NCBI GenBank assembly: GCA_938021675.1
Contig: CALIFY010000014.1
Span: 1 to 34,725, forward strand
Source: an uncultured Acidimicrobiales bacterium
GTDB taxonomy: Bacteria > Actinomycetota > Acidimicrobiia > Acidimicrobiales > SZUA-35
Length of the DNA: 34,725 nucleotides
Direction of reading: 5' to 3'
The position numbers were made by a program, and so were the translations under genes. Shown one piece after another: positions 2,872 to 4,620 of the stretch. Position 1 is the stretch's first letter, and the number at the start of each line of letters is the position of its first letter. The notes under the pieces were generated by a model. It did not search any database, was not told where the DNA came from, and saw only the letters and a list, made by a program, of their open reading frames with translations.

Positions 2872-2895
2872 AATCGACGCATCGGCGCGTCGATT
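2872..2895. promoter_or_regulatory. Palindrome, candidate operator of the double-TetR gene
   Basis: Perfect 9-bp arms AATCGACGC (2872-2880) and GCGTCGATT (2887-2895) flank a 6-nt spacer. The repeat sits 57 nt upstream of the chosen ATG of the TetR-like regulator. Related half-sites TTCGACG (2823-2829) and CGTCGAA (2908-2914) flank it. TetR proteins usually bind palindromes near their own promoters, so autoregulation is the simplest reading. A TATAGT at 2809-2814 could be a -10 element (weak). Confidence 0.5.
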
Positions 2896-2952: not shown

Positions 2953-4620
2953 ATGAGCGGCTCCAAACTTCCGACCGATAAGGACGGCAGCCCATTAGAT
3001 CTGATTCGCGATCTCGTGGTTCAGGCCGGCCTCGACGTGATCGACCGAGATGGGCTTGGGCTCCGGGCCGAGGCAATCACGTACTCCAAAGTCTTCGCAT
3101 ATATCGAAGATGAGTACGGCATTCGAGTCACCCGGGGCTCGGTTCACGAGCGGATTTGGGCAAACCAGGACGAATTTCGGTACGACGTACTGGCCGAGGC
3201 AGCGACCCACCGCCTACCATTCGATCCCAGTCGGCGAGTCAATCGGGTCTTGATCGAATCGATTGCGGCGGCCAACGATGTCGATGCCGGGTTCACCATG
3301 CGGGTCCGCTCCTTCGTCCGGCCGTTCTCGAATTCCTTGCTCGATTCGTACCTGCAGTCCGAGGGGTACCGACAGTTTCAGGCGACAAAAGCGGCGGTTC
3401 GAACCGGAGATGATACGGCCACCGCCGGTATTCGCCAGCTGGTCGACGACCGCCTCCGCCACGCTGACGACGCCCGCACCGCCCGATATCGCACGATAAT
3501 CCACGCCTTGGGCATGGGTGGTCGCCGGAGCCTCGGATTGAGCGACGATGCTGCGAACGACCTGTACTCAACGTTGCTGCACGTCCTCGTTTCCGGTGCT
3601 CACCTCGACCACTGGGCTGGATTCGACGGGATTTCTGAGACCTGCGAGATCGGTGACGACCCAGATGGCGGGTCGCCGTGGACGGGCTTCAGCCTCGCAG
3701 CTCTCGGCTGCGTGCAGATGCTGTACGAAGCAAACGACTCGATCGATCAAGCTGCCGCCGCGGCAAAGGTCTCGTCGTTCGACGCCAGAGAAGACAGCTT
3801 GGATACCGAGAACGACGGATGGGACTGGTCCTCAGACGGAAGGGCTCGTCGATCGCGGGCCGAACTCCGACGCCTGGTGACGACAGCCGGCGTCGAGGTA
3901 TTCCTTCGCGACGGTCTGCTCCTCAAACCAGAGACGTTGAGTTATGCGTCGGTCTTCGACAATGTCCGAAAGACGAAGGGCATTATCGTGCACCGGAGCA
4001 CGGTACACCCTCGGATTTGGTCGAATCAGGACGACTTCCGCCATGAGGTGCTGGCCGAAGCCGCTCGGCGTGCCTCACACGAGGTGACGATCAAAATCGG
4101 CCAGGAGGCCGGAGCGACCGTTACCGCACACAACGATGACGGGTCGATCAACCGTCGCCAGACGATGTTGGACAGCGTATTGTCGGCGACGGTCGCGCTG
4201 TGTCATCTCGCTATTCACTCGAGGTCGTTCGCCCGTTGGCAGTCGATCAAGGCATCGTCGATGACCCAAGCACCAGACGCCGAACGGCATCGACACGAAC
4301 TGGGGGAGGCGGTGTGTCAACAGTTCGACACGCTGTTGCCTCCATTGGCCGCCATGTTCGGGAAGTGGTTCGATGAACTTGGCTACGGGGTGCGTCCCGA
4401 GTTCGAGATGGACAATGACGAGGCCCTTTACACGCTCGCCGTCATTTGTATCACCTACCTCGCTGGTCTCGAATTCAATGTTGCTGCCGGCAGTGCGCTG
4501 TCGGCCCGGACCGTAGCGCTTCCCCGCGTTGACGGCACCGACCGAGTTGACGACTGGCCTGTTGTGGGGGTTGGGGTGCGGGCCGCCATCGAGCTGCTGT
4601 TCGATATCCGGCCCGATTAG
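2953..4620 (+). CDS. Large regulator with two tandem TetR-like halves
   Basis: A 555-residue protein, more than twice the usual TetR length (about 200). Two N-terminal-type DNA-binding segments occur in one chain. The first (about residues 18-85) contains ITYSKVFAYIEDEYGIRV then SVHERIWANQDEFR. The second (about 300-372) contains LSYASVFDNVRKTKGIIV then TVHPRIWSNQDDFR. They share VF..., GI.V.R, VH.RIW.NQD.FR and VLAEA, so this is an internal duplication; each half is followed by its own long helical region that could hold a ligand pocket. The layout suggests a single-chain pseudo-dimer. ATG 2953 is chosen because GGCGGAGA lies 10 nt upstream and the family-like region starts soon after; GTG at 2869 would be inside the palindrome. 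The inducer and targets are unknown. Candidate targets are itself and the neighbouring lipid kinase and protease genes. Confidence 0.72.
   Translation: MSGSKLPTDKDGSPLDLIRDLVVQAGLDVIDRDGLGLRAEAITYSKVFAYIEDEYGIRVTRGSVHERIWANQDEFRYDVLAEAATHRLPFDPSRRVNRVLIESIAAANDVDAGFTMRVRSFVRPFSNSLLDSYLQSEGYRQFQATKAAVRTGDDTATAGIRQLVDDRLRHADDARTARYRTIIHALGMGGRRSLGLSDDAANDLYSTLLHVLVSGAHLDHWAGFDGISETCEIGDDPDGGSPWTGFSLAALGCVQMLYEANDSIDQAAAAAKVSSFDAREDSLDTENDGWDWSSDGRARRSRAELRRLVTTAGVEVFLRDGLLLKPETLSYASVFDNVRKTKGIIVHRSTVHPRIWSNQDDFRHEVLAEAARRASHEVTIKIGQEAGATVTAHNDDGSINRRQTMLDSVLSATVALCHLAIHSRSFARWQSIKASSMTQAPDAERHRHELGEAVCQQFDTLLPPLAAMFGKWFDELGYGVRPEFEMDNDEALYTLAVICITYLAGLEFNVAAGSALSARTVALPRVDGTDRVDDWPVVGVGVRAAIELLFDIRPD

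Follow-up and report, generated by a model that had tools for sequence, protein, structure and literature searches.

Ordinary TetR proteins act as pairs of identical subunits that bind a palindrome (PMC11667970). The closest described counterpart of the locus considered here is Mce3R, a natural mycobacterial protein belonging to an infrequent subfamily of double TetR repressors, of which PMC11667970 presents the first structure (9b7y) and cites an earlier prediction of 204 double TetR proteins in Actinomycetes. According to the same paper, the halves of Mce3R are homologous to distinct TetR subgroups, pair within the chain through an asymmetric four-helix bundle, and bind a non-palindromic site of 25 bp. 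We analysed a stretch of 34,725 nucleotides (hereafter the window) from an uncultured Acidimicrobiales bacterium, in which the gene at positions 2953-4620 encodes what is probably a gene-switch regulator with two diverged copies of a DNA-binding module in a single chain. An engineered protein of comparable layout is the single-chain Tet repressor (scTetR), in which two TetR subunits are joined by a flexible linker, whereas the window protein is natural and its halves have diverged.

The gene (2953..4620, forward strand) is an open frame of 555 amino acids that runs from an ATG at 2953 without an internal stop. An alternative GTG at 2869, upstream of this ATG, would give a protein of 583 amino acids; the ATG is the preferred start, if an unproven one, because similarity to fused relatives begins at about residue 10-17 of the 555-residue form. 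The protein contains a TetR-like module of approximately 250 residues twice, joined by a linker of 38 residues. All parts lie on the forward strand: the N-terminal module (residues 14-260, 2992..3732) is delimited by a domain model and by structure prediction for that half, the linker (residues 261-298, 3733..3846) by alignment and structure prediction, and the C-terminal module (residues 299-551, 3847..4605) by the domain model and by structural comparison of the full-chain prediction. A sequence-only reading of this DNA had proposed an internal duplication marked by two segments of shared pattern about 285 residues apart, and both points were confirmed. The segments occupy residues 47-83 (VFAYIEDEYGIRVTRGSVHERIWANQDEFRYDVLAEA) and 334-370 (VFDNVRKTKGIIVHRSTVHPRIWSNQDDFRHEVLAEA), a spacing of 287 residues, and a BLASTP comparison of one half with the other (split at 289/290) returned 35% identity over 136 amino acids, with 75.5 bits and an E value of 2e-20. 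This likeness is beyond chance, since the best of 200 residue-shuffled second halves scored 23.5 bits, and at 35% identity the halves have indeed diverged, as had also been suggested. A trace of the duplication is left even in the DNA of the gene (75% over 72 bp, E 6e-10).

The same organisation recurs in related genomes. Among 39 genomes surveyed from the taxonomic family, including the window's own genome (G000), intact fused frames were found in seven, distributed over three genera: G000 (twice), G034, G016, G031, G012, G013 and G010. A survey of homologues had been suggested as a check, and it shows the fused form to be conserved in related genomes. The second copy in G000 lies on contig C10 and shares 41% identity with the window protein over residues 13-551. 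The domain model (260 positions) was built from 14 sequences that include both window halves, such that its match to the window arises by construction; however, it also matches both halves in all seven other fused frames, none of which was used in building it. In 13 of these 14 halves the match is nearly full-length, the remaining case being the C half of G031, where it ends at position 226.

By prediction, each half is a complete TetR-like module, with a three-helix helix-turn-helix (HTH) followed by a helical ligand-binding domain. The AlphaFold2 model of the full chain, calculated from an input alignment of nine rows (the window protein and named public loci), has a mean pLDDT of 77.4 and a pTM of 0.77, with regions of low confidence at residues 1-10, 271-299 (pLDDT < 50, within and around the linker) and 322-324; the N half modelled alone reached a pLDDT of 83.1 and a pTM of 0.77. 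The N-terminal HTH (residues 41-84, 3073..3204) was placed from the AlphaFold2 models and from the register of the family profile with the TetR HTH, and has predicted helices at residues 44-55, 61-64 and 72-86, while the C-terminal HTH (residues 328-371, 3934..4065) was placed from AlphaFold2 and an alignment of HTH segments. In VIA-align searches with the full model, Mce3R (9b7y_A) ranked first (Z 13.4, 362 of 385 residues, model residues 3..551) and was the only chain among the best 50 structures listed to span both halves of the model, although, at an rmsd of 10.5 Å, the way in which the model places the two halves can resemble Mce3R no more than loosely. Rows 2-50 all fell within residues 294-555 and are TetR-type by title or name, the best of them reaching Z 11.5 at an rmsd of 3.6 with 180 residues aligned. 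For the N half, the 50 rows listed are likewise TetR-type by title or name, the top one having Z 12.8 and an rmsd of 3.7 with 201 residues aligned; among them, QacR, EthR and HapR are structures that we take to be of this type. These models bear out the claim that a long helical region follows each HTH, both halves being modelled with the TetR fold, and the second segment, whose capacity to fold as an HTH had been singled out as a critical point, is predicted to be part of a TetR-type module at approximately residues 294-555. Foldseek gave no match with E < 0.001 for either the full-chain or the N-half model: for the full model the first nine rows were TetR-type with E no better than 0.039, followed by unrelated helical membrane proteins, and for the N half E was no better than 0.003.

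Because helical models can reach a Z of 13 in VIA-align through common arrangement alone, sequence profiles were also compared. A profile of 55 domains of the present family matched one of the N-terminal parts of 17 ordinary TetR proteins from the same genome with 95.4% probability and a score of 52.3, against at most 15.7 in 60 column shuffles, and the HTHs of the two profiles align in the same register, the family carrying insertions of 4, 6 and 1 residues. The 39 other (single-gene) modules alone gave 96.0% and a score of 56.8; the eight fused N halves alone gave 31.7% (score 28.4, shuffles at most 17.3) and the eight fused C halves 5.0% (score 21.6, shuffles at most 16.9). At the profile level, homology with the TetR HTH is supported for the family as a whole and is weak for the fused halves taken alone. 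Pfam contained no match at E ≤ 10 to the full protein or to either half, whether for TetR_N (PF00440) or any other family, and NCBIfam returned no TetR match at E ≤ 10 for the window protein or its halves, its one row (ribonuclease Z, E 0.063) being at chance level. In a Pfam scan of 14 family members, TetR_N was absent from the eight families listed and three members matched TetR_C_6 (best E 6e-4); the window genome holds 17 matches to TetR_N, and the fused gene is not among them. Searches of PDB sequences returned only rows with E of 0.14 and above for the domain profile, and two chains with E no better than 1.1 (listed at E ≤ 10), neither of them Mce3R, for a profile of the eight fused proteins. 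A direct match of the window protein to known families is accordingly rejected, there being nothing meaningful in Pfam, NCBIfam or the PDB sequences. The suggested check, a profile search of each half against TetR families, thus had a mixed outcome: no match to Pfam TetR_N, but homology at the level of the family profile, which is weak for the fused halves.

Like Mce3R, the window protein is predicted to combine, within a single polypeptide, two TetR modules whose HTHs differ from each other. The two differ in length (406 residues in Mce3R, 555 in the window protein), and the window family has approximately 11 inserted HTH residues in the profile alignment and lacks a match to Pfam TetR_N. Furthermore, the window halves look like sister duplicates, whereas those of Mce3R are reported to derive from distinct TetR subgroups (PMC11667970). 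We detected no sequence relationship, which does not disprove kinship; we therefore regard the window protein as having the same kind of architecture and do not file it in the Mce3R family. Compared with ordinary TetR repressors (PF00440), the same fold is predicted for each half and the HTH is in register in the family profile, but there are two modules per chain and the HTH has diverged beyond the Pfam model. Single-gene relatives in the order belong to the same sequence family, with one module per gene, and are presumably homodimers. The order also contains three double frames of 437-471 amino acids, known as frames alone, in G250 (L112:1458-2771, forward strand), G269 (L113:1258-2568, reverse strand) and G113 (L114:1276-2688, reverse strand). 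These resemble the window protein in having two TetR-type HTH matches per frame, but differ from it in having a first HTH of the ordinary TetR type, and only a short stretch of each matches the window family model. Judged from sequence, they are a different, Mce3R-sized kind of double TetR, with a weak match for the second HTH (i-E 8.5e-5, 0.009 and 4.5e-5 for G113, G250 and G269, respectively).

We consider it likely that 2953-4620 encodes a one-component double-TetR regulator with modules that pair within the chain, probably on an asymmetric operator, that is released by a ligand and that originated through tandem duplication and fusion. Such a one-component transcription regulator would most likely be a repressor. 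By sequence and prediction, each module brings an HTH and a helical ligand-binding part, with a flexible linker of about 38 residues between the two modules. These would pair inside the chain in the manner of the subunits of an ordinary TetR dimer, so that one chain would occupy one operator, which would probably not be a perfect palindrome. A small molecule held in the C-terminal parts would then cause release from DNA. What the sequence-only reading claimed about duplication, a TetR-like fold, a conserved fusion and divergence has stood, while its single-chain pseudo-dimer and asymmetric site are matters that we infer only, the folding of the chain back on itself being drawn from the analogy with Mce3R.

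An alternative that we regard as unlikely is a tethered assembly of four modules, in which two chains pair N half to N half and C half to C half, forming two symmetric dimers on two palindromic sites. Each half is a whole module with invariant residues (G187/G215/W243 and G477/G505/W535, in all four fused proteins aligned), and could consequently dimerise as the single-gene relatives presumably do; a perfect palindrome upstream of the gene would also suit this arrangement. However, the linker is near-constant in length (33-38 residues in all eight fused proteins aligned, with a sequence that is not conserved), which suits pairing within the chain, and Mce3R, the one solved double TetR named in PMC11667970, is reported there to pair in that way; its chain aligns over both halves of our model. 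The palindrome itself (2872..2895, assigned to neither strand) is a 24-bp element that lies 57 bp before the ATG and consists of two perfectly complementary 9-bp arms separated by 6 bp (AATCGACGC-6 nt-GCGTCGATT). It is a hint only of a possible operator, because an inverted repeat as long occurs in 23 of 1000 shuffles; an arm of 9 is also present in 18 of 576 overlapping stretches of the window, and the genome holds no second perfect copy of the element. If it were an operator, it would argue for symmetric recognition.

The neighbours of the window gene encode a YegS-type lipid kinase and a trypsin-like protease, and, judged by protein starts, no conserved neighbourhood was found among the surroundings of relatives examined. 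A divergent XRE/DUF5753 gene lies beside both the C10 paralogue and the G034 gene, accompanied in G034 by a DUF397 gene. Next to this XRE gene, both loci carry an asymmetric direct repeat of 25 bp in two copies, TGCCTASGAAWTGC-N7-CGTA (L066:5416-6246 and 6279-6368 on C10 of G000, and L058:4627-5651 and 4496-4584 in G034, for the gene and repeat regions together), of which a one-mismatch copy occurs at G000:C39:8597. A genome-wide search for the pattern with up to 3 mismatches yielded four matches, against three for a backward control. We do not assign this repeat as operator of the fused regulator, given its position beside the XRE gene and its absence from the window. In genus g5 (L061, L062, L065, L067 and L068) the location of the fused gene seems to be conserved, with genes for an RlmL-like methyltransferase and a PadR-family protein nearby (identified from gene calls, with Pfam applied to the L062 copies only). 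Elsewhere in the window, positions 7-702 hold a valine-rich, low-complexity frame, which may be the antisense of a repetitive gene; the AT skew is -0.44 over positions 1-1000.

The proposed asymmetric operator rests on the recognition segments, whose role is deduced from the register with the TetR HTH: VTRGSVH in the N half (residues 59-65, 3127..3147, forward strand) and VHRSTVH in the C half (residues 346-352, 3988..4008, forward strand), within the recognition stretches RVTRGSVHERIW and IVHRSTVHPRIW, respectively. The difference T60/H347 is fixed in all four of the window protein, C10, G034 and G016, and the differences G62/S349 and S63/T350 in the first three of these. G016 has A/S at positions 62/63 in both halves; in G031, T60 stands opposite N347 and both halves have S/S at 62/63, and the recognition differences are not kept further out than the closest relatives. 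Since the recognition segments differ alike in those closest relatives, the window protein probably reads two unlike half-sites, which makes an asymmetric operator plausible. In the g5 proteins, the recognition segments of the N and C halves are alike at 10 of 12 positions in G012 and G013 (SRAQVH core), and at 7 of 12 in G010, as compared with 7 in the window; over the whole HTH, 15-17 of 44 positions are alike between g5 halves and 17-23 of 44 between those of the window clade. The contrast between the clades in these segments is thus real for G012 and G013 but weakened overall, because G010 is no more alike than the window and likeness over the whole HTH is not higher in g5, and a near-palindromic site for the g5 proteins would be a guess.

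It is rather improbable, in our judgement, that only one half binds DNA while the other serves as a partner for dimerisation or ligand sensing. The halves have diverged, and double-length relatives in genome G038 match the ligand-binding part of the model alone, so that some members of the wider family have indeed lost the HTH pattern. Yet the window clade conserves both HTH segments, with 27 of 44 positions (N) and 22 of 44 (C) invariant in three sequences, and the two halves change at a similar rate: identities for the two halves are 41.2% and 41.5% between the window protein and its C10 paralogue, and 47.1% and 46.7% between G012 and G013. In 22 of 28 pairs the N halves resemble each other more closely than the C halves do, mostly by a few points. 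Because both halves evolve at a similar pace, neither looks decayed.

Beyond the intact fused frames, the sequence family is spread over the order. In the 39 genomes of the taxonomic family, a protein search found matches in 19 and a search with the module profile in 22; in G009 a fusion is presumed only, because the two halves run off two contig ends. Profile scans found matches in at least 35 of 298 genomes of the order, in at least 20 of 395 of the class (three of them outside the order, weak and partial) and in at least 3 of 396 of the phylum, all from the same order, these counts being lower bounds because scoring was limited to 8, 6 and 6 candidates per genome, respectively. Among the candidates scored, no frame with two profile matches was found outside the taxonomic family in any of the three scans. 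Longer frames of 399-436 amino acids outside it (G087, G305 and G588) contain one module of the present family each, and single-gene relatives in the order (e.g. L072-L077, L009 and L014) match the module model over nearly its full length. The named relatives are eight MAG loci, labelled Acidimicrobiales, Acidimicrobiaceae, Actinomycetes or Actinomycetota. A related-locus search with the single window protein as query found no relative. G038 harbours four double-length relatives (L056:4248-5783, L056:6770-8383, L057:5695-7311 and L057:7367-9091), whose frames match the model in its later, ligand-binding portion alone and are without the SVHxRIW-type motif; it is possible, from their sequences, that these are double TetR-like proteins past DNA binding. 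That two adjacent genes were joined by an error of assembly or annotation, the outcome against which the sequence-only reading had cautioned, is rejected and may be dismissed as hardly credible, for although true neighbouring two-gene versions exist in other genera (G014, G015 and G500), the window frame has no internal stop, a fused paralogue lies on another contig, and intact fused frames in six other genomes refute it.

The gene pairs offer a potential view of how the fusion arose. In G014 and G015 each module has a gene to itself, the two genes overlapping by 8 bp and 4 bp, respectively; neighbouring module genes overlap by 7 bp in G500, from another family of the order, and in G552 two module genes lie about 140 bases apart, the overlaps depending on the start codons chosen in our analysis. 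An overlapping pair is the expected intermediate between single gene and fusion. We propose that a single gene would have been duplicated in tandem, that the copies, as in the overlapping pairs of relatives, would have fused, and that the halves would then have diverged. We placed 55 modules in a maximum-likelihood tree. Within the window clade, N halves and C halves group as sisters with support 88/94, of which the first value does not reach the threshold of 95 set by the tool; the g5 fusions contribute two separate groups of halves (100/99 each), and modules from gene pairs are found elsewhere. On a long branch, the C half of G031 is placed apart from the window clade, although a placement inside is not rejected (p 0.288). 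Constraining all N halves together (p-AU 0.057) or all C halves together (p-AU 0.053) is likewise not rejected. Matches were admitted to the tree only if they started by model position 20 and had an E value no higher than 1e-5, which excluded L054, L055 and, from G038, the double frames of L056 and L057. The tree also omits repeated copies, frames under 150 amino acids (L020) and first-look matches not confirmed by the model (L003 and L021, the latter presumably a phosphofructokinase frame), as well as L112-L117 and the gene pairs of L101-L102. We favour, short of demonstration, two origins, with the window lineage having duplicated its own module and g5 having undergone a separate fusion, while a single origin of the fusion is not rejected; the present family seems to have arisen by self-duplication. 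As a more tentative and somewhat doubtful proposal, this one order may hold a natural series from symmetric to asymmetric repressor, leading from a single gene through an overlapping pair (likely a heterodimer) to a fusion, at least twice (in the window clade and in g5), with recognition segments that are near-identical in g5 (10 of 12 positions in two of three proteins) and have parted in the window clade.

Our literature searches found no publication on the double-TetR family of the window among the matches listed. Since the double TetR kind is already known, from Mce3R and approximately 200 predicted proteins, the window family, which is distinct in sequence, looks like a separate lineage of a known but rare kind. 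Genes of this lineage may go unannotated, because the window protein has no regulator match in Pfam or NCBIfam. A second lineage with singles, overlapping pairs and fusions would allow the passage from a homodimer to a single-chain reader of asymmetric sites to be tested, and this lineage might also supply natural single-chain parts for asymmetric operators.
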